Below, one piece after another: positions 20,830 through 51,130 of a stretch of DNA of 64,000 bases (its first letter is position 1; each line of letters begins with the position of its first letter). Below the pieces are notes generated by a model. That model had not been told where the DNA came from. It searched no databases and saw only the letters and a program-made list of their open reading frames with translations. Location of the stretch: assembly GCF_019056515.1 (NCBI RefSeq), contig NZ_CP064873.1:620001-684000 (forward strand), read 5' to 3'. Position numbers and translations under genes: made by a program. Source of the stretch: Microbacterium paraoxydans (GTDB lineage: Bacteria; Actinomycetota; Actinomycetes; Actinomycetales; Microbacteriaceae).

Positions 20830-21573
20830 ATGATGTTCTCGAATTTTGTGTGGCCAGCGCCGGCCGAGGCGCCCGCGGTCGTTCCTCGTCGGATCGAGTA
20901 TCAGCTCGACGGCGTACGAGTCGAGGTAGATGTTGCCGATGTTGGGAGCGTGCCGTTCGAAGACTGCGAACCGGTGCGCGACTTCCCAACCTGGCCGGGC
21001 AAGCAGCACTACTCCGGTCTCCTCTACATGCAGGGCGTGCAGGCGCACGTCGGGTTCGAGTCGCTTGCGGAACGGTCGTTCCTGATCGAACTGGATCGTC
21101 TTGAGGGCGTCCGCTCCGTCACCAGCCAACCGATGTGGATTCGCTGGCTCGGCACCGTTCCCGGCAATCATGCCCCGGACTTCTTCGTACGGTTCGCCGA
21201 CGGGTCGAGGATGCTCGTCGATGTGCGGCCGCTGCAGCGGATTGATGCCGCAGCGCGAGCAGTATTCGACCGAACCGCCGTGCTGTGCGCTGACTTCGGA
21301 TGGCGCTACGTCGTGTACTCGGAAGACTCCCCGATACGCGACGCCAACGCCCGCTTCTTGATGCGGTTCCGTGAGCCAAGGTGGTCGGTCGACGACCTGG
21401 CGCAGGCGCTGTCCGGGTTTGCCGGAACGATCAGCGAGGCAGCGGAACGACTGGGCGGGGGCCAGGAAGGACTGGGGCGCTGTTACGCGCTGATTTGGAG
21501 TCGTCGCCTCGATGTAGATCTGGAACAACCGTTGTCTTTGAGGACCCTCGTGACGTGGAGGAACGACGCATGA
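20830..21573 (+). CDS. tnsA: TnsA-like transposase endonuclease subunit
   Basis: A 247-residue protein expected to cut the 5' ends of the transposon while TnsB cuts the 3' ends, allowing cut-and-paste movement. The nuclease core is visible as FESLAERSFLIELD, then APDFFVRFADGSRMLVDVRP. The usual final VEVKP is VDVRP here, so the canonical lysine is replaced by arginine; whether another residue substitutes is unknown. It overlaps tnsB by four bases (ATGA). Two consecutive ATG codons (20830, 20833) are possible starts. Confidence 0.85.
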   Translation: MMFSNFVWPAPAEAPAVVPRRIEYQLDGVRVEVDVADVGSVPFEDCEPVRDFPTWPGKQHYSGLLYMQGVQAHVGFESLAERSFLIELDRLEGVRSVTSQPMWIRWLGTVPGNHAPDFFVRFADGSRMLVDVRPLQRIDAAARAVFDRTAVLCADFGWRYVVYSEDSPIRDANARFLMRFREPRWSVDDLAQALSGFAGTISEAAERLGGGQEGLGRCYALIWSRRLDVDLEQPLSLRTLVTWRNDA

Positions 21574-23561: not shown

Positions 23562-23567
23562 GGGCCA

Positions 23568-30729: not shown

Positions 30730-32025
30730 ATGTATGAACCCGAGGGCTTCACCGGCCTGACCGAGACCATCTGCCTTTCCCACATCACCGACCTCGTTCT
30801 TCTCGATCTAGTGATCGGTGAAGCTGACAGCCGCATTTGCTCTTATTGCGACCACCGCAGCACGGATGGGCGAATAACAGCTGTGTCGATGGACGTTGTA
30901 GGGCGCCTGGTTTACGACGCAGCGACATGGCTCTACCACGACCACGGCGGTCTGGTACCGGACGAATGGGACGAGTGGAATGCTGGTCATGAGACCGACT
31001 ACGTCGTCGGCGACTGTACTTCCGGCGCCTTCGACGCCTCGGTCATAGACGAAGTGAACGCGCACATCGCCGACGCTATCGCCACACCGAACTACTGGAT
31101 GGAATCGGGGCTACGGGACGAGTTCCAGTTCTCCTGGGACGGGTTTGCGCAGATCGTGAAGTATCAATCCCGATTCGTGTACGTTGGCGCCCGTGAGCGT
31201 GAAGGGCGTCGCAACGAGCCGCCAGCTCGCGTCTCGCGGTTCCTGGACGGACTTCTGGCCTACGTCCAGGACGACATGCTGACGATGGTCGAGCCGGGGG
31301 AGAAGCTATACCGTGCGCGAATGGCCGAGGACGGCTTCACATTCCGCCATGAGGCGCGAGCCGACCCCGCGAAGCATCTCGGCCCAGCACCCGCCGGCAA
31401 GGCATCTGCGGGACGGCTGAACCCTGAGGGAGTGGGCCTGTTCTACGGAGCTACGACGCGCCAGATCGCAGTGAAAGAAATCGCACTGCACAGCCTGTTT
31501 GACGACGCAATTGTCGGAGGGTTTGTCGTCCAGCGGCCGCTGACGGTCTTGGACTTCACAAAGCAGCCAGCGCCACCGAGCATCTTCGCGGTGGACAAGC
31601 GGCGTCAATTCTTGTTCGCGCGGTTCGCCGACGACTTCGAGGAGCGCCTGACTCAGTCGGTGCGGTTGACCGGCGTGGAGCGCGTCGAGTACGTGGTAAC
31701 TCAAATCATCGGTGAGTACTTCCGATGGGCCCCAGAGAAGAAGCTGGACGGAATCGCCTGGAAGAGCCACCTCCTGAGCGGGGATGAAAACGGCAAGAAC
31801 GTGCTCGTTTGGGCGAGCGCCGATGACGTCCGCTCCGACCCGCCGCCTGCGGACGACCCAGCTGACTCGGAGCTGTGGCGCCGTTCTTTCGGCCCGCCGA
31901 CCCCGACTTTGACGTTGTCGGACCGGGACGTTACGGTGCATCGCGCGAAGCGGTTCGTCACGGTAAGCCACGCGATTCTGCCGGGTGACGATGACCCGGA
32001 CCCGATGTTCATGGACTTGAAGTGA
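30730..32025 (+). CDS. RES-domain protein with HEPN/RES N-terminal domain
   Basis: A 431-residue protein. The N-terminal part holds a CSYC pair (C37, C40) and helices, as in the HEPN/RES N-terminal domain 1 family. From about residue 190, KLYRARM begins the RES domain, followed by GRLNPEGVGLFYGATTRQIAVKEI and a later Q-F-L-F-A-R segment. RES toxins of the MbcT/Res type degrade NAD+; the R, Y and E of this fold are present. No antitoxin gene is adjacent, so it may be a self-contained abortive-infection effector held off by its own N-terminal domain. Confidence 0.75.
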   Translation: MYEPEGFTGLTETICLSHITDLVLLDLVIGEADSRICSYCDHRSTDGRITAVSMDVVGRLVYDAATWLYHDHGGLVPDEWDEWNAGHETDYVVGDCTSGAFDASVIDEVNAHIADAIATPNYWMESGLRDEFQFSWDGFAQIVKYQSRFVYVGAREREGRRNEPPARVSRFLDGLLAYVQDDMLTMVEPGEKLYRARMAEDGFTFRHEARADPAKHLGPAPAGKASAGRLNPEGVGLFYGATTRQIAVKEIALHSLFDDAIVGGFVVQRPLTVLDFTKQPAPPSIFAVDKRRQFLFARFADDFEERLTQSVRLTGVERVEYVVTQIIGEYFRWAPEKKLDGIAWKSHLLSGDENGKNVLVWASADDVRSDPPPADDPADSELWRRSFGPPTPTLTLSDRDVTVHRAKRFVTVSHAILPGDDDPDPMFMDLK

Positions 32026-32313: not shown

Positions 32314-35300
32314 ATGCTCAACGTTTGGAGTCGGTCAGGGGCGATAGCGGGGCGAGGTTTTCACTATCAGGACGCGGTCGGTGCGTGGCTTAGCGGCCGG
32401 CTGATCGCAGGCGAGTTGGATGCGCGTCGCATCGTCCCGGAGGGATTCGAAGATCTACATATCGAGGGGCCCGAGCTAACGTTCGTGCAGGTGAAGAGTC
32501 GCCAGGAGAAGCGAGGCGCATTCTCAGTCAGCGAGACTCTCGGATTTCTTGAGGAGATGTGGGCCAAGCACCTGACCCGCGAGGCAGTAGGCATTGCCTC
32601 AGGTCGTTTGATGCTCGTCCAAGAGCGGAGCATCTCCGGAGAGGTCTTCGACGGACATGCCGCGGTCCTGGCTGACCTGCCGCTGACTCACCCGCTTGTG
32701 GAAGGCGTGGTCGAGAGACTTGGCTTGGAGCATGCTCGAACGCTCCTGCAACTGACGACCTTGATCACTTTGGATTGGCAGGATGCGCAGTCCGCCGCGG
32801 TGGATGCGATTACATCCGCCTCCGGGGCGGTGCGCGGTGCGGCAGAGCTCATTGAGCGCCTGCTGCGGATCGACATTGCAACCGCGGCGGATCGAAACGC
32901 GGCAGCTCCTGACCCGGACGACGCGGCGTTCGTGAACGTGAGCTCGATCTCGAAGCGAATCGAAGAAGTGCTAACCCTCCTTGACCGAGATGCCCTGGAG
33001 CGGGCACTCCTGGATGGCATCTGTGTTCCCGTTCAGTTCTCGAGCGACGTGGCGGCGAATGACTACTACTTGGGCACCGCAGCCCGACCTTCGCATATCG
33101 CATCTGGTTTGCCAGCGCCGATGCCTGATATCGCCGCGCAGGCCATCGAGAGCCTGAACTCGGGTGCTTCCGTCCTTTTGGCCGGTCCTTCCGGAGTTGG
33201 AAAATCAACTGCGCTTTGGTCGACGGTCTACACGCGCCGCGACGTCACCTGGTATCGAGTGACTCGTCTCTCGGACGATGCCATCCAGGGAATCAGAGAT
33301 CTCCTCACTGCACGGATGCCGAGCCGCCGAAATCAGATCGGTCTGGTCGTGGACGGCGTCGGGACCGGCGAGCTTGTCGGTTGGGACGCGATCAATCAGG
33401 CCGTTCGTGATTTCGAAGGCGTCATGCTGCTCGGGACGGTTCGCAATGAGGACCTCGTCAGCGTTCAAGATCGGGCCGGGAGCGCGATCGTGGAGGTTAC
33501 CCTTACGGAGGATATCGCCGAATCGCTGCACGAGAATCTTCGGCAACGCGGGTTGACCTCAAACGCGCATTGGCGTGAGGCGTACGTCGAAGCGGACGGA
33601 CTGACGATGGAGTTCACCTACATGCTCACGCGTGGCCGTCGGCTTCGAGACGTCCTGCGGGACCAAGTGCTCTCGCGCGTCCGGGCCCAGCAAGAGACTG
33701 AGCTCCAGATCCTCGCCCTGATCGCAACCGCAGGAAGGTGGGCGCTCTCTGTGCCTATCTCGGAACTGTCGGAGTTTGAGAACGGCTCTGGCAGCCTGCG
33801 ACGTGCCCTGACACGGCTCAACGAGGAACACCTCGTTCAAGTCGTGAGTGAGTCGGTGCAAGGGCTACATCCGCTGAGATCACGGTTCCTCTCTGAGATC
33901 GTCCATGAGCTGCCGCCACCGACGGCCAGCATGACGACAGTGAAGCTCGTGTCCATGCTTCCTGCTCCTGCCTTACCGGCGCTGCTAGCAGGAATCTCGC
34001 AAGACCTCCCGGCCGCCTTGCCAGCGGCCGTAGAGGCGCTTATCCTCAGGATGCAGTCGGGCACCAACGCCGATGTGCTCGAAGGGCTCCGCGCCGTGAA
34101 GTTCGTCGATCTGAGCGCACGATCAGGGCGGTGGGTCGAAGTACTCGATCGACACGATGTGCAACCGCCGTCAAAACTCCTCGCGATCCAGCTGGCGCTG
34201 ATCGATTCGGACCTAGCGGGTTTGCCGTTCCCTGAAAACGTCTCAGCGGCGATTGCGGAGCTGCGTGCTGCAGTGCGCGAGCCTTTCGATTCTTTAGATA
34301 GGGCTGTGCAACAAGTGGGTGTGCAACGACTCGGTGAAGTGATACTCGACTCGCCAGATTTGGCCAGTGTGAACCAGGCGCTCGGATATTCTCAAAGCCT
34401 TGCGCCGGCGATCGCCAGCGACCTCGTCCAGGCACTTAGGCGGATGCGCGACGAAGGCCGCCCCGTCCGATCGCTCGACGTCGAACCAGATCTGGACGAC
34501 TTGGCTGACCTCTTGCTAACAGCGGCTACGTTTGCTTCGGAAGTTGCGGAACTACTGCTCGCGGCCGCGGGCGGTGCTGACCGCGCGCAACAGCGCATCC
34601 TCGAGCGTTTCCCCTGGGCGACGACGGCAGGAATCGTTGACGGACCTGAAGGCGCAGTTTTCCGTGGCCAGATCCTCCACATTTCCGATCAAGTGCAGGG
34701 TGACGCTGACCGAAACGCCAAGGAATTTGCTCGTTTAGGGATCGCCCTCAACCCGAGCGTCGTACATGCAGACATCACCACGATCTGGTCGGACGGAGCG
34801 CCTTATGAGGTTGGAGGTAACTTGATGGGAGTGTCGACGCTTCGTCGGCAGTATCTTCACTCTCGGTCGTCTGTGAGCGGCCATCGGCAGACCGCTGGGT
34901 TCGCCGCAGCTCGCTTGCACGATCTAACAGCGACTGATCGTATGGAGATCGCGCTAGCAGGAATCACCATCGCCGAATCGCTCCTCCCAAGCATTATCCG
35001 TGTGTGGCTCCGTGGCGAGAATCGTCCTTCTGCCATGTCTGCGATTCACGCCTCACGCGTTGAACTTGACGCGCTCTCACGTCGACTGGTCCCGGTGTTT
35101 CGCGAGCCTCTTGCGGCTGAAATCTCCGTTATCGCGGATAGTCTCCAGACTCTGCTTTCCGCGATCGCGGTGGACCTCCCAAGTCGGCTGACCGACGCTT
35201 CAGGCTACTTAGCGCTCGCTTCGCATATCAGTGAAACCCTCGTGGATGCAGTGGGCAAGGCGCGGCAAGAGCAGTGGGAGATGATCGGCGTTCATCCCGG

Positions 35301-36195
35301 CGGGCTGCTTGACGTCGTTGAGCGAGAGCTCCAACAACTCGCGACCGTGCTCCAGGAGGTCGGGTCAGCTGGCACTATGCCGCAGGACATTCGACGAGCC
35401 GCACGGTCCGGCGACTCGCAGCGGGCCTTGTCTCGCGCGGCAGACCTGTCAACCAGGAACGCGTTGCGGCGTGCCGAGCGCGGACAACAGGAGAGACTCG
35501 CGGTCATCCGAGATTTCGGTCGGGAGGCTGCTTCTTACTCAAGGATGGTCCAGGGCATTCATGATGGCTGGCCGCCACAGCAATATGCCATTGCGGTAAA
35601 GGCCGAGAACGTTGTCGATTGGCTCCTCGTGGTGGAGAGAACGCTCGCGGCTCTGACTCCCGCGGAGATGAGTAACGCGTACCGCCCCGCATTGATCATC
35701 TTCCCGGAGATAGCTGGACGCCGAGTCGACTCGTTCGGCTGGCAAATCATTCGGTCTGCGTTTCCGATCGTCGAACCACTCACTGGTTGGGGTGCGACGT
35801 TTCCAGAGGCATGGGAGACTCCTCGGTTCGAGGCGCTCGGTGCGGGCCAGCATGCGCTCGCTGTGTTGTCCGGGCTGGCACTGCTAGAGCGCTCTCGGTC
35901 GACCGCTCCGCTAGCCGAAACGCGTTTGGCGGCTGAACAAGAGTTCCTGGTTGCCCGCGCGGCGCTCGGCGCTTACCCGGATCGGATCACTCAAGACATT
36001 GCTGCCTTTCTCGACTCCTTGGCCGCACAAGTCGCCCGGGAAGCAGACGAGAATATGGGTGAGACGTTCTCGGCACAGTTTGTAGCGCTTGTCCGGGGAC
36101 AGCAAACCTCATTTACGAGACAGCTTAGTAAGTACGCAAGCCTCGCGATGCAGGCCGACATAGATCCGGAGGTGGCCGAGGCCCTCGCTGAATGA
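32314..36195 (+). CDS. Cap4-type nuclease fused to STAND NTPase (Avs2-like defence protein)
   Basis: A 1293-residue protein. The first 65 residues have GFHYQDAVGAW and EGFEDLHIEG...FVQVKSR (D47, Q59, K61), the PD-(D/E)XK-type pattern of the Cap4/DUF4297 dsDNA endonuclease. Walker A is AGPSGVGKST at about 290-299 and Walker B GLVVDGVG at about 345-352, followed by winged-helix and long helical repeats of about 700 residues that would form a sensor. This is the layout of Avs-type STAND immune proteins: pathogen-protein sensing, oligomerisation, then DNA degradation. A strong AGGAGAGGAGGCAGGGG precedes the ATG. No partner gene is needed in that family. Confidence 0.78.
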   Translation: MLNVWSRSGAIAGRGFHYQDAVGAWLSGRLIAGELDARRIVPEGFEDLHIEGPELTFVQVKSRQEKRGAFSVSETLGFLEEMWAKHLTREAVGIASGRLMLVQERSISGEVFDGHAAVLADLPLTHPLVEGVVERLGLEHARTLLQLTTLITLDWQDAQSAAVDAITSASGAVRGAAELIERLLRIDIATAADRNAAAPDPDDAAFVNVSSISKRIEEVLTLLDRDALERALLDGICVPVQFSSDVAANDYYLGTAARPSHIASGLPAPMPDIAAQAIESLNSGASVLLAGPSGVGKSTALWSTVYTRRDVTWYRVTRLSDDAIQGIRDLLTARMPSRRNQIGLVVDGVGTGELVGWDAINQAVRDFEGVMLLGTVRNEDLVSVQDRAGSAIVEVTLTEDIAESLHENLRQRGLTSNAHWREAYVEADGLTMEFTYMLTRGRRLRDVLRDQVLSRVRAQQETELQILALIATAGRWALSVPISELSEFENGSGSLRRALTRLNEEHLVQVVSESVQGLHPLRSRFLSEIVHELPPPTASMTTVKLVSMLPAPALPALLAGISQDLPAALPAAVEALILRMQSGTNADVLEGLRAVKFVDLSARSGRWVEVLDRHDVQPPSKLLAIQLALIDSDLAGLPFPENVSAAIAELRAAVREPFDSLDRAVQQVGVQRLGEVILDSPDLASVNQALGYSQSLAPAIASDLVQALRRMRDEGRPVRSLDVEPDLDDLADLLLTAATFASEVAELLLAAAGGADRAQQRILERFPWATTAGIVDGPEGAVFRGQILHISDQVQGDADRNAKEFARLGIALNPSVVHADITTIWSDGAPYEVGGNLMGVSTLRRQYLHSRSSVSGHRQTAGFAAARLHDLTATDRMEIALAGITIAESLLPSIIRVWLRGENRPSAMSAIHASRVELDALSRRLVPVFREPLAAEISVIADSLQTLLSAIAVDLPSRLTDASGYLALASHISETLVDAVGKARQEQWEMIGVHPGGLLDVVERELQQLATVLQEVGSAGTMPQDIRRAARSGDSQRALSRAADLSTRNALRRAERGQQERLAVIRDFGREAASYSRMVQGIHDGWPPQQYAIAVKAENVVDWLLVVERTLAALTPAEMSNAYRPALIIFPEIAGRRVDSFGWQIIRSAFPIVEPLTGWGATFPEAWETPRFEALGAGQHALAVLSGLALLERSRSTAPLAETRLAAEQEFLVARAALGAYPDRITQDIAAFLDSLAAQVAREADENMGETFSAQFVALVRGQQTSFTRQLSKYASLAMQADIDPEVAEALAE

Positions 36196-39303: not shown

Positions 39304-40890
39304 ATGACCTCCGAAACTACCGACACCGCAGACGCGCCCATCTGGTTGCACCCTCACGGGGAGCGGCCGGACGACAGCACAGTGGACAGCATCACGGAGG
39401 CATTTGCGGCTGATGACCCTCGGTTCGCGGTGCAGGCCGACAAGCTCGACGAGCTCCTGAAGCTGGGGTATCAGCCTATCCCGCGTTTTCTGTTCTCTCT
39501 TGAGAATGTCGAGCCCGAGGTGATCGGCCCGATGAATTCCTCTAACAAACTCGGTATTCGTTTACACAACGCCGTCGTCAAGTCGGGGGATCTTGGTGAC
39601 GATGTCCTGGAGGCCCTTGTCCTACGACGTGACGCGATCGGCCAGGTTCTTAAGTGGTCTGACCCTGCTGCGTTTCCCGCAATCCTAGAGTATCTACGGG
39701 AGCTGGCGCGGGCACGGGGTAGTTCGATTAGCGACTTTACGCTGCGCGGCTCACCCGCGCCGTCACTGTACAAGAGACTCGACACGCATGGCGACGCCGA
39801 AGCGGCATCAACATTAGACGCCGAGGTTGAGCCAGAAGATGCGGCGGACGACTTTCCGATCGCACGAGAAGTGTTGGCGAAGCTCCGGGACAGCCTCAAT
39901 GTGGTTGTCGAGGGTGTTGCCGGATCAGGAAAGTCGCATCTGATTCATCAGCTTCGGACGGCGTACCAACACGTCGAGCTGGTCGTGTTCCATCCGTCTA
40001 CAGGCTACGAAGAGTTCGTCTCGGGACTGCGCCCCAGGGCGGACGGCGGCTTCGAGGGCCGAGCCGGGGTGTTCGTAGAGATGTGTATCCGCGCGGCGCG
40101 CCACCCCGATGAGCTATTCCTATTGTTCGTCGACGAGATCAATCGCGCGAACACGTCACGTGTTTTCGGCGATCTGCTTCTCCCTCTCGAAAAGTCGAAG
40201 CGTGTAGATTTCGCCGAGACTGCTCTTGACGAGGCGCTATTGAAGTACCGGCCATTGGGTGATGACATCTCAGTGCGACTGCAGACTCCTATAGACGTGC
40301 TTCCCGACGTGGGGCCGGCTCCCGAAGAAGAGGAAGTCCATGACGTTGCACTACCGCTGCTCGACAAACTGGGGATTTCGACGCCGTCCGCAAAACCACT
40401 CGGCCTTAGCTATCTAGTGGTTCCGCAAAACCTGCATGTGCTTGGAACAATGAACTCGACGGACCGCTCCGTTGGCTCGATCGATCTGGCGCTACGTCGG
40501 CGATTCACTTGGATGGACATGCAGCCGCTAACGAGCGATGACCTTATTTCGAACACGCTCGTGGGCGCGCGAGTATCAGAGGACCCGGAGTGGCGAACGG
40601 TGATCGAGTGGTATGGTCAGGTCAACGCGCTTCTGCTTGCGCAACTCGGACCGGATGCTCGACTGGGGCACTCGTACTTTTTTGCTGACGAAAGCGCGAG
40701 TGGCACCGCCGCGCTTCTGCTCGCACAGCTCGCGGAGATCATTCACGTCTTCAACGCATCGGAGACGCTGCTGGAGTTGATACCTGAGTTGTTACTGCGA
40801 TCTGAGAGCACCAGCTGGACGATCGCTTACGTCGGTTTGGGGCTTGGGCGCCGGCCCATCGTGCGATCCACGCCGGCCGTCGCTCTATGA
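39304..40890 (+). CDS. mcrB: McrB-like AAA+ GTPase of a type IV restriction system
   Basis: A 528-residue motor protein. Walker A is VEGVAGSGKSHL (G204-S211), Walker B LFLLFVDEINRAN (271-283), and MNSTDRS at 383-389 is the variant of the McrB guanine-recognition signature MNTADRS. The N-terminal 190 residues, before the AAA+ core, should form the modified-DNA-reading domain and do not resemble the E. coli one, so target specificity is probably different. McrB hexamers translocate and activate McrC. The gene overlaps mcrC by four bases (ATGA). Confidence 0.9.
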   Translation: MTSETTDTADAPIWLHPHGERPDDSTVDSITEAFAADDPRFAVQADKLDELLKLGYQPIPRFLFSLENVEPEVIGPMNSSNKLGIRLHNAVVKSGDLGDDVLEALVLRRDAIGQVLKWSDPAAFPAILEYLRELARARGSSISDFTLRGSPAPSLYKRLDTHGDAEAASTLDAEVEPEDAADDFPIAREVLAKLRDSLNVVVEGVAGSGKSHLIHQLRTAYQHVELVVFHPSTGYEEFVSGLRPRADGGFEGRAGVFVEMCIRAARHPDELFLLFVDEINRANTSRVFGDLLLPLEKSKRVDFAETALDEALLKYRPLGDDISVRLQTPIDVLPDVGPAPEEEEVHDVALPLLDKLGISTPSAKPLGLSYLVVPQNLHVLGTMNSTDRSVGSIDLALRRRFTWMDMQPLTSDDLISNTLVGARVSEDPEWRTVIEWYGQVNALLLAQLGPDARLGHSYFFADESASGTAALLLAQLAEIIHVFNASETLLELIPELLLRSESTSWTIAYVGLGLGRRPIVRSTPAVAL

Positions 40891-42413
40891 CCGACTCGAC
40901 CCCGCTGGCTGATGTGCACAACCTAAGCTGGTTCCGCGTTAGTGAGCGGGGAAACGGTGTGGGCCTCACCGTGCTTAACGACGGCGCGTCTCGATCGTCG
41001 CTGGTGATACATGTGCTGCCCAAGCTATGGCGTGGGTCGAGCACCCCGCGAAGCGTTAAGGCACCTGTCGCCGGAGGCTCGGTCGATATCTACGAAGGTG
41101 ACTATGTCGGCTTCCCTCCGGTGTGGGCGGCGCGGATAGAAACAACGACCTTGCCGATCGCCGAGGCTGAGGCCGAGGTCTTGGTGCCGGCCAGTCACTC
41201 GAGCGATGGCGACCGCGAACCCGGGGCGGGCGATCAACTCTGGACACCCGTTGCGCGACCGCGTCGACCCGAAACGTCGGTAGAGCGCCCGGAGCTTCGT
41301 ACGGCGATGTGGGATCTCCTGCTTGGTAGCCGTCAGAAGATCGCACCGGTGCGTGGCAGCATCGCTGACTTCACTGCTGCGGCCGGCGTCTTCGCTTCTA
41401 TGCCTGAACTGCGCCCGCTCTTGCAATCTGTCTTCGTGGATCGCGCGGTGGCGGCAATCCCGCTTCGCAAACCGGTGTACCGCGAAGTAGTCGAATCGCT
41501 CGGTGTGGTGCGTGGACGTATTCTCGTCGCTCCCCTCGTGCGACGGCAGGCGACTCAAGCGCTCCCCATCGACTGCGAGTTTGACACGCTGACGGGTGAT
41601 GACGACGTCTGGCGTGCCATTAAGGCGGCGCTTATCGCGTCCACGGAAGCCATAGCGCGCACCGACCTGATCCGTGAAGCGGTGGCGCGACTGGAGGATG
41701 TTGGCAGCGTGCAAGCCGCCTCTGTCCTATCACGCGCGAGACGCGCTTGGTCTAGCCGCGATCCAAAACTGAAGGAGTTGCATGACCTGGCCGTTGCAGT
41801 CTTGCGGAGTGATTCTCGGCACAGCGGCGAGAGTCTGACAGCGAGCGGCGTCGCCATCAACGTGAAATTTGTGACGAGCGACCTGTGGGAGCACCTGCTG
41901 GTCGAAGCTTTCCGAGGTGCAGGCGCCGACGTCTCCAAACCGCGGCTGCCCCTCTTCTATCGCCAAGAGCCGCTGGGGTGGAAGGCACTTACGGGGAAGG
42001 CACCGGACTTAGTGGTATCACCGCCTGGCGGCCGGAAGATCATCGTCGATGCGAAGTACATGGCCAGTAGCTCGTTGTACTCGGCGCCCATGTCCGCGCA
42101 ATATCAGATCGCGACCTATGCTCTGCGATCTGGTGCGCCGGCATTCCTTGCCTTCTCCGCGCCCCCGGGCGAGACTGCGTCGGACGATGCCACTGCGGAG
42201 ATGGCGCTGGTGCCTGCGCTCTGGGACGAGTGGGAGCAGCGATACCTTCCAGACGCAACAACCACGCAAACCGTGATTGTGGGGTCGCTCCGGTTTCTGT
42301 TTCCCGCTCCGGGCGACGCGTCGCACGGAGTTCGCCTTATCGCTCAGGCGCAACAGCTGCTCGCGTTAGTCGAAGCGACGATGGACCGTTCGGAAGACGA
42401 CGTTCCTATCTGA
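40887..42413 (+). CDS. mcrC: McrC-like endonuclease subunit
   Basis: A 508-residue partner of McrB. The C-terminal PD-(D/E)XK nuclease is clear: KAPDLVV (P373-D374), then IIVDAKYM (D388-A389-K390) and SAQYQIATYALRSG. The N-terminal 250 residues contact the McrB ring in known systems. It starts inside the mcrB stop codon. With McrB it should cut methylated or otherwise modified invading DNA. It is the last gene before the transposon right end. Confidence 0.9.
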   Translation: MTDSTPLADVHNLSWFRVSERGNGVGLTVLNDGASRSSLVIHVLPKLWRGSSTPRSVKAPVAGGSVDIYEGDYVGFPPVWAARIETTTLPIAEAEAEVLVPASHSSDGDREPGAGDQLWTPVARPRRPETSVERPELRTAMWDLLLGSRQKIAPVRGSIADFTAAAGVFASMPELRPLLQSVFVDRAVAAIPLRKPVYREVVESLGVVRGRILVAPLVRRQATQALPIDCEFDTLTGDDDVWRAIKAALIASTEAIARTDLIREAVARLEDVGSVQAASVLSRARRAWSSRDPKLKELHDLAVAVLRSDSRHSGESLTASGVAINVKFVTSDLWEHLLVEAFRGAGADVSKPRLPLFYRQEPLGWKALTGKAPDLVVSPPGGRKIIVDAKYMASSSLYSAPMSAQYQIATYALRSGAPAFLAFSAPPGETASDDATAEMALVPALWDEWEQRYLPDATTTQTVIVGSLRFLFPAPGDASHGVRLIAQAQQLLALVEATMDRSEDDVPI

Positions 42414-42914: not shown

Positions 42915-45353
42915 ATGGCATCGAAGTCGAAGCGTTTGAAGGCGCGTACGAAGAGGCGGCGGCATTTGCCTCACGGGGACGCTGCAGCGCCGTCGGATCC
43001 TTATGTGGATTTTGTGATGCAGTCCTCGGATACGGTGCAGTCACTGTTTGCTGAACTCAGTGCTGAGGGCGACTTCGCGGCGAACGTGAGTACCAGGTTC
43101 GCTGACCGTGTAATTGAGCTTGCGGCAATGGGTTCGCGTTTCACGCCGGCGAGGTTGGCAGAAACCGCCAGGCTGGCGTACTTCCCCTTATCTAAGGCGG
43201 GGCAGGTTGTGGCGAGCCCGGACGGCGGCGCGTGGCAGGTCGAGTTGCTCGTGCTGTTGGCGATCGCGGGTCGCAGTACGGATGAGGTGGATGTTCCACC
43301 GGCTGAGCCGAATGAGATGAGCGGGGTGGTGCAGGACGCCCGGCCGATTCTCGAAGAGATCACGAACCTGGGCTGGTTCCGGACGCTGGTCGCAGCTGGC
43401 CCGGACGCACCACTGGGGTGGCTATCGCTCAGTGTGCAGGGGTCAGAGGTCGCGATGCGCAACTCCTCGTACGCAGACGTGTTGCAGGCGACGGCGGTCG
43501 AGCTGCTCGATAGCAACCGGGGGGTTCGCGATGCGTTGGAGGCGGGTTTGGGATTTAGCGCTGCTGAGGCGCTGAGTGTTCTGAATGCCTGTCATTCGAT
43601 CCAGGCACGCAAACTTAACAAGCGGGGGCAGCAGTTCGCGAGTTCGCTGTCAGAGCCTGCGGGCGCGCCCGGCGATGATGTCGTATCGATGGCCAAGGGG
43701 GCCATGAATGTGCTGATGTCAATGTTCGAACCGTCTGCGGACGACTGCACGGTCGGTATCGATGAGCTTGTCGCGGAGACTGGCCTCCCACTGGAGCGTG
43801 TCGAACGAGTGGTCGCCTTCTTCACTCTTGATGCGTCCGGGATGACAGCGTTGGAGGCCGCAGAGAAGTTCGTTCAGGGAGACAACCCGTGGCGACGTCA
43901 CCCGTTGCTTTCGGGCTATGCGGGTCGGGTGATGCTGCTGCACGACGGACACACAGCACCGGCGTTGAGGGAGAGGCTTGAGGAGTTCCTGAAAACGCAG
44001 AAGGTGGAATGGGACGCGTACGCGAAGCACCGCGGAGAGGTCCTGGAGGAGCGAGTCATTCGCGCGGTGAAGATGATTCTTCCGACGGCGACGTACCGGA
44101 ACGGGTTCGAGTTCTACGTCCCCGCAACGGAGGCAGAGAAGGCGACTGGCTCTGCTGATGCGTATACCAAACGGGTGGAGTGTGATCATCTGGTTCTTGT
44201 GGATGACGTGGCCTTCGTCATCGAGGACAAGGCGGTTGCGTTCAGTGCCCTGTCGCGGGGAGGAAAGACAACGCGCCAGCTCGGTGATTTGCGGCGCATC
44301 ATTACGAACGCAGCGAATCAGGCGGGGCGCGTGCGATCAGGGATCGTCGAAGACGGCGGGCTACGCGTCGAGGGTGAGGGATGGGTGGACCTCGCCCACA
44401 TCCGCGAGATCCATACGATTGCTGTAAGCCTTGACGACATCCCCGCCGTGTTCACGGCGACCGCGGATCTTCTCGAGGCCGGGCTAATCGATCTGGAGAA
44501 CGTCCCATGGACGGTTTCGCTGCACGATCTCGAGCTGATCGCGGAGCTGGTGGACCGGCCTGCAGAGTTCCTCCTTTATCTGCGGCGCAGGCGCGACCCG
44601 ATGACGACGATGATGTTCGTGGCGCCTGACGAACTCGACCTGTTCCTCTACTTCTACGAAGCTGGATTGTGGGTGGCGCCCGACCCGGCCCTTGTAAAGG
44701 AAGCCTTCCCATTCATGCCCAGCCCCACCACGGGTGAGCTGCGTCGCTTCCGGCAGCAGGTACCGGCGTTCATCACGAGCCGGACGGATGCGGTCGATCA
44801 GTGGCATCTCACCCGCGATGCCAGCCCGCGTGCACCGAAGCCGTCGATGCCGACGACGAGCATCGTTGACCTTATCGACGAGCTGCACGACCGACAGAGC
44901 TTCGGCTGGCTAAGTGTCGGGGCGACACTGCTTTCCGGAAACGAGGCGGCGCAAGAGAAGTTCGCGCGGCATGCAAAGGACCTGCTCAATAACCCTGACC
45001 CGGAAGGTCGCGGACGTAGCCTGACCGTTCCGGTCACCGGAAGTGTCAACGTCGAGGAAGGCTGGGTGCTGGTATGGGCGGTCAAGCCTCCTGGAATCTC
45101 CTCCGCGACGTGGGAGGCACACATCCGCAACTACATGAAGGCTAAAGGGCACCAGCTCAATATCCCGCGGGTGGCCGCATTCGCGTATGACGAGCTGAGC
45201 CGCGAGTTGATAGCCCTCTACTACGAAGGGGAGACCAGCACGCTGGATCCCTCGGCGACAGCGTCGCTGCAGCGGTTGCGGCCCGCGTCCGCTCTGCAAT
45301 CGCTGCTTCCACCTGCGGCGAAGCGACGCCGTGGCTCTAACAACCCGGGGTAG
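42915..45353 (+). CDS. Large uncharacterised protein with PD-(D/E)XK-like nuclease core
   Basis: An 812-residue protein with a lysine/arginine-rich N-terminus (KSKRLKARTKRRRHLPHG). After a helical region comes VECDHLVLVDDVAFVIEDKAV, where D424 and E437-x-K439 fit the D-(D/E)-x-K core of NERD-like or restriction-type nucleases, preceded by an acidic EERVIRAVK helix. The C-terminal half is mixed alpha/beta without recognised motifs. It lies 175 bases right of the Tn7-like end, in the second accessory block, alone in its transcript. A defence role is an inference from context. Confidence 0.65.
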   Translation: MASKSKRLKARTKRRRHLPHGDAAAPSDPYVDFVMQSSDTVQSLFAELSAEGDFAANVSTRFADRVIELAAMGSRFTPARLAETARLAYFPLSKAGQVVASPDGGAWQVELLVLLAIAGRSTDEVDVPPAEPNEMSGVVQDARPILEEITNLGWFRTLVAAGPDAPLGWLSLSVQGSEVAMRNSSYADVLQATAVELLDSNRGVRDALEAGLGFSAAEALSVLNACHSIQARKLNKRGQQFASSLSEPAGAPGDDVVSMAKGAMNVLMSMFEPSADDCTVGIDELVAETGLPLERVERVVAFFTLDASGMTALEAAEKFVQGDNPWRRHPLLSGYAGRVMLLHDGHTAPALRERLEEFLKTQKVEWDAYAKHRGEVLEERVIRAVKMILPTATYRNGFEFYVPATEAEKATGSADAYTKRVECDHLVLVDDVAFVIEDKAVAFSALSRGGKTTRQLGDLRRIITNAANQAGRVRSGIVEDGGLRVEGEGWVDLAHIREIHTIAVSLDDIPAVFTATADLLEAGLIDLENVPWTVSLHDLELIAELVDRPAEFLLYLRRRRDPMTTMMFVAPDELDLFLYFYEAGLWVAPDPALVKEAFPFMPSPTTGELRRFRQQVPAFITSRTDAVDQWHLTRDASPRAPKPSMPTTSIVDLIDELHDRQSFGWLSVGATLLSGNEAAQEKFARHAKDLLNNPDPEGRGRSLTVPVTGSVNVEEGWVLVWAVKPPGISSATWEAHIRNYMKAKGHQLNIPRVAAFAYDELSRELIALYYEGETSTLDPSATASLQRLRPASALQSLLPPAAKRRRGSNNPG

Positions 45354-45526
45354 CCCGCGCGGCATCGGCTATCCGGGGGGAACACGCGCATCCACTGGGG
45401 CGGTGGTCAAGCCCAGGAGCGCCAAAGCTCCCCAATCGCGCTAGGTGGCGTCAGGGCACCCAACACATCGTCCGGCAGACCCCTAGCGGGACCTTTCCCA
45501 CTGCGGCGTCTCTGCTTTCCAATGAC

Positions 45527-45547
45527 TGGCTGGCTGGCTGGCACAAT
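45527..45547 (+). promoter_or_regulatory. Tetranucleotide repeat in a putative promoter
   Basis: Four perfect TGGC units (45527-45542) run directly into CACAAT (45542-45547), a plausible -10 box seven bases before the GTG at 45554. TTTCCA at 45516-45521 is a possible -35 with 20-base spacing. Slippage by one unit would move the spacing to 16 or 24, so expression could be phase-variable. Confidence 0.35.
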
Positions 45548-45553
45548 GACAGC

Positions 45554-46960
45554 GTGACGAGAAACTCAGGCTTCTATCTCGGTGTCGGCACGATCATGAC
45601 CGAGTCGGTGACAAGCAAGATCAACACCTCCGGCGGCGAGTACGTCCTGAAATCTCTGAACTCCAAGCCAGGAAACTGGGTAAGAATCGCCGAGATTGTC
45701 AAGCGAAGCGATCTCACCGGCGTCATCATGAAGCTGACGGGGAAGGACTTCCAGCGCATCGCGAGCGCCGCCTACGCGCAGGCCACAGACGTTCTGTTCC
45801 GCGAGCTCGCGACCAAGCCGCACCTGCTGCTCGTCCACGAGGAGGTCGTGACCCCGCGCGATCCGGAACTCGAACCGGCGACTCCCGAAGGTGCGAGCGC
45901 TGACGAGGACGACGACGTAGACGAAGAGGACTGGTTGATGGACCTCGACGGGGATGAGTGGAACGACGACATCGCCCGCGAGTACTTCGGGACCCTGCCG
46001 AAGGAGGTCCGTGAAGCCGCCCAGCGGCGGTTCGAGCCGCACGGCCTGACTCTCACCACCTACAAACGCAACGCTGAGGCGTCCATCTTCGCGACTGCGT
46101 TCGTCGAGGACACCCTGAACAATCTCCTGTTCCGGATCTACGTCCCGGCCGGTCGGCTGTACGAGGACGAGCTCGCCAAGGTGCTGGAGCTCTTCCATGA
46201 CTGGCTGGGTTCGGTGAAGGAGCAGACTGTCAGGCAGTCCGGCTATCGCACCCCGAGCGGCCGTGTCATCGAGTTCTTCGGTGAGCCGGGCATGAACGCT
46301 GACGTGGTAAGTGACGAGCTCCAGGAGTTCGCTCAGTTTCTGAATATCATCGAAGACTCCGCGACCGCCGAGCAGATGCTTCTCCATCTGGGCGTCACGC
46401 CCGATCGAGCGGGCGGTCTGGTGTCGAAGTACGCCAAGGCCGCACGCAGGGTTCTCGTCGACACGAAGCACACCAGGGAACGCATGATCCTCGAGATCCA
46501 GCAGCAGCTCGAATCGGAACTCATCGACGAGCTGCCTGACCTCACTACGGCAGAGCTCGGAGACCTGGTGAGCCAACTGGTCCCCGTCTCGCCGTTCGCA
46601 GCGAGCCCGGAGACGAGGAGCTTGGCGGCTGGTCAAGATGTACCGTCCCCTACGGTCAACGTTCAGGTCATCCAACGAGTCGAAGGCATCGTCGCCCAGA
46701 ACGTGAACGGCCCGGTCACGGTGGGTACGCCGGCGGCGGAGCTGATCCAGCTCGTCCGCCAGTTCGGCGACGACTCCGCTGGGGTCTTGGAGACCTGCGC
46801 GCGGGAGCTCGCTGATCCCGGCGCACCTCAGCCTGCGCGGCTTCGTGCTCGTCAGGCCTTGAAGAATTTCCTCCTGCGCAACGCTGCTCGGATCGAAAAG
46901 TCCGTCTACGACAATGCTTTGAAGTGGGTCGTGGACAGCGTCAGTGACTGGCTGGGGTAG
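45554..46960 (+). CDS. Uncharacterised protein with acidic central region
   Basis: A 468-residue protein. The N-terminal third has an IAEIVKRSDLTGVIMKLTGKDFQ stretch, then a strongly acidic segment (SADEDDDVDEEDWLMDLDGDEWNDD, residues about 115-140). A helical middle and a C-terminus with VNVQVIQRVEGIVAQNVNGPVTVGTPAAEL followed by helices complete it. The C-terminal layout recalls small effector-associated modules but I cannot name a family. The GTG at 45554 is near-leaderless. It is a solitary gene in the accessory block; function unknown. Confidence 0.62.
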   Translation: MTRNSGFYLGVGTIMTESVTSKINTSGGEYVLKSLNSKPGNWVRIAEIVKRSDLTGVIMKLTGKDFQRIASAAYAQATDVLFRELATKPHLLLVHEEVVTPRDPELEPATPEGASADEDDDVDEEDWLMDLDGDEWNDDIAREYFGTLPKEVREAAQRRFEPHGLTLTTYKRNAEASIFATAFVEDTLNNLLFRIYVPAGRLYEDELAKVLELFHDWLGSVKEQTVRQSGYRTPSGRVIEFFGEPGMNADVVSDELQEFAQFLNIIEDSATAEQMLLHLGVTPDRAGGLVSKYAKAARRVLVDTKHTRERMILEIQQQLESELIDELPDLTTAELGDLVSQLVPVSPFAASPETRSLAAGQDVPSPTVNVQVIQRVEGIVAQNVNGPVTVGTPAAELIQLVRQFGDDSAGVLETCARELADPGAPQPARLRARQALKNFLLRNAARIEKSVYDNALKWVVDSVSDWLG

Positions 46961-47068: not shown

Positions 47069-47230
47069 GTGAACCAGGAGAGACCGAACGAGCGCCGCGC
47101 GAAGAAGGCCGTCGAGAAAATGCTGGGCGTCACGCTCGACCACGCCGATAAGAACGGTGGCGCCGACTATCTGTTCCCTCGCGACACCATCGCCCTTGAA
47201 GTGACGCAGGTCACTGATGAGGACGTGTGA
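47069..47230 (+). pseudogene. Truncated paralogue of the IS-interrupted gene
   Basis: A 53-codon frame, VNQERPNERRAKKAVEKMLG then VTLDHADKNGGADYLF and TIALEVTQVT, matches the start of the gene at 36562 (VNQERPNELVAKQIV, HADTHGGVDYK, KIALEVTAVT). It then stops at 47228-47230, where the interrupted gene continues for more than 200 residues. The break falls exactly where a minus-strand SIR2-like remnant begins, so a recombination junction near 47210-47220 truncated it. It has no visible ribosome-binding site. Confidence 0.8.
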
Positions 47231-48010
47231 CTACTTCGCTCCGAAGATGACATCTGAACGGGAGGCGGCGTATGGAAGGGTGCGCGGTCAAGTCATTTCC
47301 GCGTGGGCCTCGCATCGGAACGTCTACCTTCGTCTGGAGCTCAGAGGTCAACGTATGGCCCTCGACCTCGAGCGTGAGTGTCTCGTTCCGTTGGGTCGGC
47401 CAGATCCGGAGCGTGATCTTGTCGCCGGCTGGCCATGAGTTCACTCTTGATGGCACGCCGTCGTAGGTCGTCACGCGGGACAAGTCGCTGCCTTCGAACT
47501 CCGGCGTCACTCGTCCCGTGTTGGATCGGAATCCCACGTGAGACAGTTGCGGCCCGGCATGGGCGATCTCGACGAGTATTTCGCCGTTGTCCGCGACTGT
47601 CGCACTGAGGTCCGCTAAAACTATGGTGTCCGCCGCGAGTGGCTCGGTTGAAAGCGCATGGGGCAGCTGGGCTTTCGCGCCGCCCTGATACCCGAAGACC
47701 CGCTGGGGGCGATCGGTGAGATTGTCCCGCCACGAGCCGCCGTACTCGCTGACCAACTGGCCAAAGAATGACCCAGATCCCGCATAGGACCAGGTCGGCT
47801 CGATGACCCCGACAATCCGCTGCTCCGACCGGAGCATCCAGTTGCGGATGGCGTGGTTGACGTGCGTGTCCGCGAAGCGGTAGCCCACGATCACGAGGTG
47901 GTCGGCGCGCTCTATCGCTTCTTCCGCGGCGTGAAGCAGTTCAAGGGTCGGACCGTCGGTCGCAAGTTTCTCCCGATCACCGACAACAATCCAGGGTTGT
48001 TCCTCGCAGG
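47211..48010 (-). pseudogene. SIR2-like protein remnant (C-terminal part)
   Basis: Read on the minus strand from about 48010: PWIVVGDREKLATDGP, then ELLHAAEEAIERADHLVIVG and YRFADTHVNHAIRNWM, the conserved C-terminal end of SIR2-like domains (VFGTREKL, then LVVVGYSFxDxHIN). About 190 more residues follow, to a stop at 47211. The N-terminal NAD-binding half is missing, and the frame loses similarity above 48010. SIR2 proteins of this kind are NADase effectors in phage defence, so this is probably a dead defence gene. Confidence 0.62.
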
Positions 48011-48153: not shown

Positions 48154-48732
48154 CTACTGCCGAGGTCCGGGGTCGTTCTTCCGCGTCCAGCGCTGTGCGA
48201 TGACCCGGGCTCCCCTCATCTGCATCTGCGCGAACTGCTCGCTCACTCCGAACGCGAATGCCACCTGCTGGTTGCTCCACCCCGCGAACGCGGCCTTGCG
48301 TGCGGCGATGTCGGGGACGAGGAGTTCCCCGGCCATGAACGTGGCCTGCTTCTCTTTCATCGTGTCGAAGACCCGTTCATGGTTCGCCCCGATGAGGGAC
48401 GCGTCGAAGGCGTGCTCCAGAAGATGATGTCCGAGCTCGTGCGCGATGCTCGCCCGCCGGCGGACCTCCGCGTGGCCGTCGTTGTCGAGGATGATGCGGC
48501 TCGTGCCCAACGGCACCAGTGCCGCCGACCACCGTCCCGTCGTATCGGCGAGGAAGTGGCTCAGCGCCGCCTCGCTGAGCGCCCACGCGTGCAGCTCCGA
48601 CAGCGGATAGACGGAGATGCCGTGTTCGTCGGCGAGGAGATAGGGGTCGAAGCGTTCCGTCGGCGTGAGGCCGAGGTTCTTCCGCTCCTCGGCGGCGACC
48701 TCTCGCATCGATTTCTGGGTCCACCGCTCCAC
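48154..48732 (-). CDS. ImmA/IrrE-family metallopeptidase
   Basis: A 192-residue protein with zinc-peptidase motif IAHELGHHLLEHAF (H98-E99-x2-H102) and third-ligand region KEKQATFMAGELLVP, the ImmA/IrrE (PF06114) pattern. A C-terminal HTH-like segment (NQQVAFAFGVSEQFAQMQMR) follows. Such peptidases cleave or antagonise HTH repressors. Its GTG start shares one base with the stop codon of the upstream HTH gene (TAGTG), so the two are made together. It should act on that repressor and release the divergent ubiquitin-like operon. Confidence 0.9.
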   Translation of the reverse strand: MERWTQKSMREVAAEERKNLGLTPTERFDPYLLADEHGISVYPLSELHAWALSEAALSHFLADTTGRWSAALVPLGTSRIILDNDGHAEVRRRASIAHELGHHLLEHAFDASLIGANHERVFDTMKEKQATFMAGELLVPDIAARKAAFAGWSNQQVAFAFGVSEQFAQMQMRGARVIAQRWTRKNDPGPRQ

Positions 48733-49112
48733 TACTCGCCCCGTGACGCGCTTTCAGCCTGGAAGCGTCGCGCCGCGGCGCCGATGACTTCCTCGAGGTA
48801 CTCCACATCCTTGCCGGTGAGGTCTTTGCGGGCGCGCAGGAGCGGCGCGAGCGTGGCGACGAGATCCGGCTCATCGACGTCTGACCGGACGGCACCGCCG
48901 ATGTAGAAATCCTCGGCCGGCATGCGCAGCCAGGTGGTCATCGCCGCGAAGGCCGTGACATCCGGTTTCAAGTTATTCGCCATCCGGGAGATCGTCGACG
49001 CGCTCACGCCGATCTCTTTCGCGAGCTGCCGCCAGGAAAGACCCCTGCTCTCCCGTGTCCTATCCAACGCCGCATGCAGCGACCTCACGTCAACGCGTAG
49101 CTCTTCGGTCAT
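48732..49112 (-). CDS. XRE-family HTH repressor
   Basis: A 126-residue protein with a lambda-repressor-type HTH (RGLSWRQLAKEIGVSASTIS, residues about 23-42) and a helical C-terminus. It is the promoter-proximal gene of the minus-strand pair and faces the ubiquitin-like operon across 131 bases that contain a perfect palindrome. Known XRE/ImmA pairs switch on a neighbouring operon after a trigger such as DNA damage or ssDNA, which is the likely model here. Confidence 0.9.
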   Translation of the reverse strand: MTEELRVDVRSLHAALDRTRESRGLSWRQLAKEIGVSASTISRMANNLKPDVTAFAAMTTWLRMPAEDFYIGGAVRSDVDEPDLVATLAPLLRARKDLTGKDVEYLEEVIGAAARRFQAESASRGE

Positions 49113-49170
49113 CCCTGCTCCGCCTCTTTCGCACTGCTCGACATGTCGATCATGTGTGCTATTCTACTAC

Positions 49171-49188
49171 TGCTCGAAACTTCGAGCA
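49171..49188. promoter_or_regulatory. Perfect palindromic operator between XRE and Ubl genes
   Basis: TGCTCGAAACTTCGAGCA has perfect eight-base arms around AC. A second shorter palindrome, TCGACATGTCGA, lies at 49138-49149. TATTCT (49160-49165) between them could be a -10 for the rightward operon. Placement between divergent genes makes this the best candidate site for the XRE protein. Confidence 0.75.
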
Positions 49189-49243
49189 CCGCACTAAATC
49201 CGGCGCGTCTGGTGCGGCGACTATCAGCGTCGGAGGAGAAGTC

Positions 49244-49519
49244 ATGGACACGATCTCGGAAGAGGGCGTTCAGCGCGGCAAGCCAGCGGTCACGATTTTC
49301 GTGAACACCCGCGAGTTCGCGTGGAGTGAGAAGGAGATCTCGTACGAGCAGGTGTACGCGCTCGCGTTCCCGAACGACCCGCTCAACGACGGCGACGTCG
49401 TGCGTATCGAGTACTCGCGGGGACACAACGGTGGTGGGGCGGGCGCGCTGCAGCCGGGCAAGACCGTCCGTGTGAAGAAGGGCATGGTGTTCGATGTCTA
49501 CGTCACCGTTCGCAGCTGA
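49244..49519 (+). CDS. Ubiquitin-like (multiubiquitin-type, single domain) protein
   Basis: A 91-residue protein starting at the ATG behind GGAGGAGAAGTC. The body, TIFVNTREFAWSEKEISYEQ, VYALAFPNDPLNDGDVVRIEYSRG and KTVRVKKGMVFDVYVTVRS, follows the beta-grasp pattern of bacterial multiubiquitin domains (PF14452). Only one domain is present and the C-terminus is TVRS, with no Gly-Gly. In conjugation systems a glycine tail is normally adenylated by the E1. It overlaps the E1-like gene by 26 bases. Acting as a platform or sensor and not a conjugated modifier is possible. Confidence 0.82.
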   Translation: MDTISEEGVQRGKPAVTIFVNTREFAWSEKEISYEQVYALAFPNDPLNDGDVVRIEYSRGHNGGGAGALQPGKTVRVKKGMVFDVYVTVRS

Positions 49520-50726
49520 TCCCTCGATCCGCCGGCTGCTCGAGGAGGACTATTGCCTCACCGTGGACAGCAACCATCTCCTCGTCGAGCACATCCCGTA
49601 CGTCACCCCCGCAGGGGAGGTGGCGTACGGACGGCTCGCCCTTCCGGTCACGTTCAGCGGGGACGACATCGTGCAGGACGCGACCGGCAGTCACGTGATC
49701 TGGTTCATCGGGGAGCAGCCGTGCGACGAGAATGGGAAGCCGATCGAGGGGGCGACGCCGTCGCCGCACGCGGTGACGGCGCATCTCACGGCGTACTTCA
49801 TGATCTCGAGCAAGCCGCGACGGATCGAGGCCTTCGACACCATGTACGAGAAGGTCAGGTCGTATGCGCGGGTGCTGAGCCACCCGGCGCGCGCGCTCGA
49901 TCCGACGGTGACGGCGACCCCGGGGGCGGGGTGGTCCGAGGTCCCGGATGACCTGCCCTTCGTGTATCGCGACACCGGGACGGCGCGGGTGGGGCTGGCT
50001 GACATGAACGCGCGGTTCCGGGGACAGAAGGTCGCGATCATCGGCCTCGGCGGGACGGGCAGCTACATCCTCGACCAGGTGGCGAAGACGTGGGTTGACA
50101 GCATCGACCTGTTCGACGGGGACGTGTTCGACAACCACAATGCGTTTCGGGCACCCGGGGCGGCCTCTCTCGAGGAGCTCGCCCAGCGACCGAACAAGGC
50201 CGACTACTTCGCGGGCCGGTATGCGCACATGCACACGGGCATCACCGCCCACCCCACGTTCGTCACCGCCGAGACGCTCGATGTCCTTACCGGGTTCACG
50301 TTCGTGTTCATGGCTGCGGCGGACGCGGACGACAAGCCGCAGATCCTGGCCTGGCTGCGCGAACGGGGTGTGCCGGTGATCGAGGTGGGGATGGGGATTC
50401 AGGACGAGGGTGGACAGTTGTCCGGCCTGCTCACCGTGGTGAACCACTTCCCGGGCCTTCCGGTTTCGCCAGCGGCGTCCTCCGCGGGCGGTATCAACGA
50501 GTACGACCGCAACATCCAGGTCGCGGACCTCAACGCGCTGAACGCGACGCTCGCGGTCCTGGAGTGGAAGAAGCACCTCGGCTACTATGCCAGCGCCGGT
50601 GCGACGACGGAGTCCATCTATAAGATCTTCACGGGCGACATCCGTGTTGGCACGGACATCGACACGGATATCGGCGCGGACGGCGCGACGAGTGCGGATG
50701 CGGCGCCGTCCGAGGAGGCCGCATGA
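49494..50726 (+). CDS. E1-like ThiF-family adenylyltransferase with extra N-terminal domain
   Basis: A 410-residue protein. Residues 1-170 form an N-terminal domain of the type I recall as DUF6791, with C21 and C77 its only cysteines. The ThiF domain has VAIIGLGGTGSYILDQVAKT (G184-x-G-G-x-G), the acidic LFDGDVFDNHNAFR (D208, D210, N216, R219), K235 and FMAAADADDK for ATP binding. No cysteine is present in the E1 region, so a thioester step would have to use the N-terminal domain or not occur. It is coupled to the ubiquitin-like gene upstream and DUF6527 downstream (ATGA). Confidence 0.85.
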   Translation: MSTSPFAADPSIRRLLEEDYCLTVDSNHLLVEHIPYVTPAGEVAYGRLALPVTFSGDDIVQDATGSHVIWFIGEQPCDENGKPIEGATPSPHAVTAHLTAYFMISSKPRRIEAFDTMYEKVRSYARVLSHPARALDPTVTATPGAGWSEVPDDLPFVYRDTGTARVGLADMNARFRGQKVAIIGLGGTGSYILDQVAKTWVDSIDLFDGDVFDNHNAFRAPGAASLEELAQRPNKADYFAGRYAHMHTGITAHPTFVTAETLDVLTGFTFVFMAAADADDKPQILAWLRERGVPVIEVGMGIQDEGGQLSGLLTVVNHFPGLPVSPAASSAGGINEYDRNIQVADLNALNATLAVLEWKKHLGYYASAGATTESIYKIFTGDIRVGTDIDTDIGADGATSADAAPSEEAA

Positions 50727-51130
50727 GAGTGGACCGGATCGTCCCGGAGTTCGTGGCCTCGTTCCCGTCCGATCTAGAGCCGGGTGTGCTGTACGTGTCG
50801 ACGATGTTCTCCACCACGGCGCACGCCTGCGCCTGCGGATGTGGCCGTGAAGTGATCGCCCCGTTGTCTCCGGCACAGTGGGTGCTCACCTTCGACGGGA
50901 CGGTGTCGTTGCGACCGTCGATCGGCAACTGGGGGCTGCCGTGTGGTTCCCATTACCTCATCGATCGAGGGCGCATCCGGTGGGCGGGCCGCTTCACCTC
51001 GTCCGAGGTGCGCCGCAACCGGGAGGCGGATGGCCGGGCCCTGGATGCGGCGCGACCGTCGACGACGCGGTCGTGGTGGCGCCGCCTCGGGGACGTTCTG
51101 CGGCGGCGCCGGTCAGCGGTGCGGGACTGA
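50723..51130 (+). CDS. DUF6527-like putative zinc-binding protein
   Basis: A 135-residue protein with HACACGCGREV (C36, C38, C40) and GLPCGSHYLIDRGRIRW (C74, H77), which together look like a zinc site. The GSHY-x-I-x-x-G-x-I-x-W end is the family's signature as I recall it for DUF6527. The tail is arginine-rich. It starts within the stop of the E1-like gene, so three proteins come from one operon. The family tends to travel with multiubiquitin and ThiF genes; its activity, perhaps peptidase or ligase-like, is not established. Confidence 0.75.
   Translation: MRVDRIVPEFVASFPSDLEPGVLYVSTMFSTTAHACACGCGREVIAPLSPAQWVLTFDGTVSLRPSIGNWGLPCGSHYLIDRGRIRWAGRFTSSEVRRNREADGRALDAARPSTTRSWWRRLGDVLRRRRSAVRD

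Follow-up and report, generated by a model that had tools for sequence, protein, structure and literature searches.

The bacterial operon type 6e (polyUbl) was predicted by Iyer, Burroughs and Aravind in 2006 (PMC1779556). According to that paper, the Ubl (ubiquitin-like protein) encoded by its operons has between one and three tandem domains and is accompanied by a Zn-finger-like protein (metal-binding protein Y), a subset carries an uncharacterised domain X instead of JAB on the N-terminus of the E1, and an inactive E2/RWD-like domain is present in part of the type without being demanded of every operon. Most of the Ubls newly described there have no conserved C-terminal residue. Here we analyse a 64,000-nucleotide stretch of the Microbacterium paraoxydans genome (contig NZ_CP064873.1, positions 620,001 to 684,000; hereafter the window), in which five genes at positions 48154-51130 form a minus-strand pair, for an M78 peptidase and an XRE repressor, and a plus-strand series for a Ubl, an E1-like protein and a DUF6527 protein. 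The plus-strand operon is of the already known kind, i.e. type 6e in the form that has domain X rather than JAB. In all 94 loci of its branch in which the end of the Ubl was counted, the last residue is serine. The parts of the locus are as follows, with the E values of the Pfam matches.

48154..48732, minus strand: M78 (ImmA/IrrE) metallopeptidase, CapP-like, 192 aa (PF06114, E 1.8e-14)
48732..49112, minus strand: XRE-family repressor, 126 aa (PF01381, HTH_3, E 3.1e-8)
49135..49152, no strand: second operator-like site TGCTCGACATGTCGATCA, imperfect, found by eye, one base off TGCTCGA-N4-TCGAGCA
49171..49188, no strand: operator-like palindrome TGCTCGAAACTTCGAGCA, the top palindrome of the xre-ubl gap
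49244..49519, plus strand: Multi_ubiq single-domain Ubl, 91 aa, ending T-V-R-S (PF14452, E 3.5e-14)
49494..50726, plus strand: DUF6791-ThiF E1-like protein, 410 aa (PF20590, E 9e-37; PF00899, E 7.5e-9)
50723..51130, plus strand: DUF6527 protein, 135 aa, with a probable Zn site (PF20137, E 1.5e-21)

The Pfam profile matches of all five genes agree with the identities and positions given in a preliminary description of this DNA, and the open reading frames (ORFs) together with Pfam confirm its three coupled genes as an operon with a divergent XRE and M78 pair. The first 26 nucleotides of the E1 gene lie within the Ubl gene (49494-49519), and the E1 and DUF6527 genes share 4. By Pfam the E1-like protein consists of DUF6791 (residues 11-161) and ThiF (residues 173-300), and the translated M78 protein carries HELGHH.

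In a comparison with type 6e, the single PF14452 domain of the window lies within the range of Ubl domain counts, the E1 has an N-terminal extra domain in both (DUF6791 before ThiF in the window), and both have a metal-binding protein, DUF6527 being present in the window and in the Synechocystis cassette (3.1e-22). The sporadic mobile distribution is also shared, and one actinobacterium is among the type 6e carriers. On the other hand, the operon of the window has no E2/RWD-like protein, its metal motif is C-x3-C...C-x2-H rather than C-x3-C...H-x2-C, and the DUF6791 branch has an invariant serine where most of the Ubls newly described in 2006 have no conserved end residue. From the paper's description we infer that domain X is DUF6791. 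Contrary to what had been supposed, the system is not of a new kind, since this row of operons has been known since 2006.

The second group of relatives are the Bub systems, for which Citrobacter BubA, BubB and BubCD (PDB 9ea4, 9ea5, 9ea8, 9eae, 9eav) served as reference. The Synechocystis type-6e operon, which also has Multi_ubiq and DUF6527, encodes a JAB-ThiF protein, most of which aligns with BubCD (3.6e-42), and an E2 that matches BubB (1e-14); therefore the operons now called Bub correspond to type 6e in its JAB/E2 form. BubCD is the nearest profile to the E1 half of the window's protein (5e-11), by fold BubCD and ThiF are tied, and the regulators are similar. The window differs in having neither an E2 (BubB) nor a JAB, with DUF6791 instead, and in a Ubl that ends in serine and not at glycine. 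With Cap2, the E2-E1 fusion of type II CBASS (cyclic-oligonucleotide-based antiphage signalling system), the protein shares the ThiF half and an N-terminal extra domain. The matches are weak, however, and those to the CBASS E1-E2 models of PADLOC do not extend over the whole ThiF half, and no model of the CD-NTase (nucleotidyltransferase) matched among the neighbours scanned, so that the layout is indeed unlike CBASS. Bil is a set of four proteins, BilA-D (Ubl, E2, deubiquitinase and E1); the operon of the window has three genes.

The conservation of the arrangement was followed in two samples. Among 299 Microbacteriaceae genomes (the window's included) DUF6791 was found in 9, PF14452 in 12 and PF20137 in 13 (12 of these above the cut-off), and all nine DUF6791 genes have PF14452 immediately upstream and PF20137 immediately downstream on the same strand. 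For the wider sample 96 loci were collected, each with a DUF6791-E1 as its anchor: 12 plasmid loci out of 115 matching plasmid records, 80 loci from species genomes, which were the best among the 574 candidates confirmed in a capped scan, and 4 viral contigs. Here a Ubl lies upstream of the E1 in 94 of 96 loci and a DUF6527 ORF is found in 95 of 96, although in L099 and L113 some 2 kb of other sequence separates the DUF6527 gene from that of the E1. As to the misses, L136 and L098 are truncated by the contig end; in L076, where no Ubl was detected, the tblastn match begins only at E1 residue 60. The gene arrangement is not a matter of chance, and the expected co-occurrence of multiubiquitin, ThiF and DUF6527 is conserved.

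To our knowledge, the well-studied ubiquitin-like modifiers are activated at a C-terminal glycine. The DUF6791 branch has a different end. L076 and L136 were left out of the counts, no Ubl having been found there, and in the remaining 94 loci the last Ubl residue is serine without exception. Before it stands Lys or Arg in 85 loci, with Gln in 7 and Glu and Leu in 1 each, and position -4 is Thr in 83, so that the usual end reads T-x-[K/R]-S. Database searches with the window's Ubl gave 108 homologues, of which 107 also end in serine. At 60% E1 identity the loci form 48 clusters (the window's included), and the 44 clusters with the gene overlap are all serine-ended. In PDB 9cd2, a multi-ubiquitin domain protein, it is the C-terminal domain to which the Ubl of the window is similar (E 0.0016), and the chain ends V-T-Q-T-D-K-S, likewise in serine; this protein has 222 aa and additional Ubl domains, as opposed to the single-domain Ubl of 91 aa. 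Neither the invariant serine end nor the regularity of the branch as a whole is described in the sections and passages of the literature examined, Gong 2025 and Ye 2026 not among them.

A serine end could in principle be imposed by the E1 gene, which overlaps that of the Ubl. The terminal serine codon is TCG, TCA, TCT or TCC across the loci and AGC in the window, and the overlapping E1 residue varies with it (R, H, L, P or A); the conservation therefore acts on the Ubl frame. Moreover, in L091 and L121, which have no overlap, the Ubl still ends T-T-R-S. The codon variation and these two overlap-free loci rule this explanation out. The overlap itself is constant in most loci: the E1 start codon is exactly 26 nucleotides ahead of the Ubl gene end in 90 of 94 (87 ATG, 2 GTG and 1 TTG). 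An annotation artefact was considered and is ruled out by codon usage, since the Asp/Asn codon that contributes the first two bases of the ATG has T as its last base in 36 of 36 GC-rich loci, against an average of 13.5% in the same E1 genes. In other words, the E1 start is maintained by selection, and the overlap probably serves coupled translation.

Nine loci of the E2 type were compared (L021, L022, L023, L025, L138 and L143-L146), of which L022 is E2-like by our own model only, L146 lies below the Pfam cut-off and has a weakly matching Ubl, and L144 and L146 share one genome. Four of the nine Ubls end in glycine and five have a glycine between positions -4 and -7, a loose criterion, since glycine is also found at position -3 in 2 of the 94 serine-ended Ubls. 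Four of these five E2-type Ubls (L021, L023, L025, L143) read I-N-P-G followed by three to six residues, which suggests, from the sequence, that they may be precursors trimmed after the glycine by a peptidase. Two of the nine end in serine (L021, L022) and none in T-x-[K/R/Q/E]-S.

The E1-like protein retains the adenylation residues and has no conserved cysteine in its E1 half. In 88 E1s R165, G184, G186, G187, G189, D208, D210, R219 and K235 are invariant, and no cysteine column in the E1 half exceeds 34 of 88. In DUF6791, H67, S105 and Y124 are invariant. The cysteines C21 and C77, which the preliminary description had put forward for mutation, are not invariant (16 and 70 of 88 E1s, respectively), and are therefore weak catalytic candidates. 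The predicted structure has a pLDDT (predicted local distance difference test) of 91.6, and in NCBIfam the protein barely exceeds the cut-off of PRK06153.1-3, a "hypothetical protein" family (343.4 vs 340 bits).

The statement that the system lacks a separate E2 and JAB holds in the wider sample: at E 0.01 the Prok-E2_E and JAB models match nothing in the window or in the 96 DUF6791 loci. The same Prok-E2_E models match 9 of the 9 comparison loci, 7 of these being sequences from which the models were built, and the JAB models match 7 of 9, one of these a model-building sequence. An ordinary thioester conjugation via C77 or another cysteine, with an E2 supplied from elsewhere in the genome, would fit the protein families and the presence of C77 in most E1s. 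We consider it very improbable, since C77 lies outside the E1 half and is not invariant, the Ubl has no glycine end, and Prok-E2_E (PF14462) is absent from the organism's own genome in a search that was positive in 3 of 396 others.

In the DUF6527 protein H34, C36, C40, C74 and H77 are invariant among 74 sequences and C38 is conserved in at least 90%. The residues C36, C38, C40, C74 and H77 form a probable Zn site; the pLDDT of the predicted structure is 92.1.

The regulatory pair shows a partial likeness to that of immune operons. The M78 peptidase matches capP (7.5e-11) and RmrA (8e-8) in PADLOC, and the XRE repressor matches the RmrA models (6.4e-9) better than capH (7e-4). According to PMC13373217, CapP is a repressor-cleaving peptidase, and CapW or CapH with CapP adjoin 219 of 544 Bub operons. 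In 68 of the 94 loci of our sample the Ubl gene has an M78 gene upstream at a distance of at most 3 kb, a share similar to the 70% of PF14452 genes that adjoin an XRE and COG2856/DUF955 pair according to Kopfmann et al. 2016 (PMC4963859). The regulator link is therefore not new either. Of the 26 loci with no M78 nearby, 25 neighbour proteins from 21 loci were scanned and four have a WYL domain.

The palindrome TGCTCGAAACTTCGAGCA is equalled in 18 of 1000 shuffles of the xre-ubl gap, and its position, 49171-49188, is the sole fit to TGCTCGA-N4-TCGAGCA in the 3.59 Mb genome. The exact motif is missing from most relatives. A looser pattern, composed after the palindrome shuffle results were known and adding a single locus (L064), has 7 occurrences in the 947 kb of sequence covered for 94 relatives, always 327-392 nucleotides before the Ubl stop and in the xre-ubl gap of six loci (L061, L062, L064, L065, L069, L081); it does not occur in 20 shuffled scans. 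Since 6 of 24 loci tested for palindromes reach p 0.05 by shuffles, the operator is common to a few actinobacterial loci only. Damage- or phage-inducible expression had been proposed earlier. The capP-like M78, the RmrA-like XRE and the single-copy palindrome in the divergent promoter region support this proposal, while the induction itself we only infer.

Kopfmann et al. term the XRE and COG2856/DUF955 pair a toxin-antitoxin, so that the pair could be an addiction cassette that secures the maintenance of the Ubl genes on mobile DNA. The 70% linkage, the toxin-antitoxin reading in the same paper and the mobile setting speak for this explanation. It is nevertheless quite unlikely in our opinion, because M78 resembles CapP, described as a repressor-cleaving peptidase in PMC13373217, the shared operator-like site faces the operon, and some loci have a WYL-domain neighbour instead of XRE and M78.

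The operon is rare, being found in 3 of 198 genomes from the phylum and in 5 of 247 genomes of the genus (the window's genome counted). It is widely scattered: the record titles of the loci name Actinobacteria, Proteobacteria, Bacteroidota, Cyanobacteria, Bacillota, Acidobacteria, Phycisphaerae, Kiritimatiellae, Lentisphaerae and Elusimicrobia, i.e. about ten phyla by title, or nine if Kiritimatiellae and Lentisphaerae count as one. Of the plasmid records with a match, 83 of 115 are typed mobilizable or conjugative. Four loci with the DUF6791-E1 are on viral contigs, and the E1 had no match in phage records. On a Leptolyngbya boryana plasmid (L044) a UvrD-type helicase gene flanks the operon and a large caspase-family gene lies one gene beyond.

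Distribution and neighbours also bear on whether the operon is a carrier or peptide-modifying system, with an E1 acting like MccB, TcdA or ThiF and the Ubl as carrier or product (e.g. a Ser-ended adenylate). This explanation appears unlikely to us: no metabolic neighbours recur in the 12 annotated plasmid loci, the occurrence among congeners is sporadic, and the regulator types are shared with immune operons.

In the window, most genes between 21.4 and 47.9 kb have a third-position GC (GC3) below that of the rest, and this region is a probable mobile island with the operon at its right edge. At its left edge (21381-24542) are TniA/TnsB-like (rve, Mu-transpos_C) and TniB/TnsC-like genes of a Tn5053/Tn7-type module, and an ISL3 transposase gene lies within the low-GC3 island. 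Also present are a toxin-like protein with an HEPN/RES N-terminal and a RES domain (30730-32025), a 1293-aa ORF that matched neither Pfam nor PADLOC models at the chosen thresholds (32314-36195), AAA_5 and McrBC genes that are a probable restriction pair a few kb from the operon (39304-42413), and two large ORFs of 812 and 468 aa with no Pfam, PADLOC or NCBIfam match (42915-46960). A minus-strand ORF of 227 aa (47211-47894) has a weak SIR2-like end match (PADLOC 0.006) and may be a remnant.

Taken with some reserve, as a reading we doubt slightly more than we believe, the operon would be a JAB-less and E2-less branch of the Ubl systems related to row 6e and Bub, stress-inducible and mobile, with an E1 that adenylates a C-terminal serine and a likely role in defence. 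Stress, i.e. DNA damage or infection, would activate the CapP-like peptidase, which would remove the XRE repressor. The E1 would then adenylate the serine of the Ubl and might hand the Ubl on with no thioester, either straight to the target or via an oxyester. Ye 2026 reportedly deals with oxyester intermediates and a Ser-His protease family. DUF6791, as a transferase or peptidase, may do the work of the E2 and JAB of the sister branch, and DUF6527 may recognise the targets as an adaptor. The operon would plausibly serve to protect its host from phages or other mobile elements. The weakest of these steps are the thioester-free transfer, the transferase or peptidase role of DUF6791, the adaptor role of DUF6527, and defence. 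Experiments on the DUF6791 branch were not found in the literature examined.

The broader possibility, which we hold more tentatively, is that the branch is a separate lineage of Ubl chemistry with a cysteine-free and E2-free E1, an invariant serine end, transfer or removal by DUF6791, a stress switch and a mobile distribution over about ten phyla. If true, this would be ubiquitin-like logic based on another chemistry, with two core proteins, an invariant serine, no conserved cysteine in the E1 half and no E2, and the operon is a compact system with clear residues for mutation.

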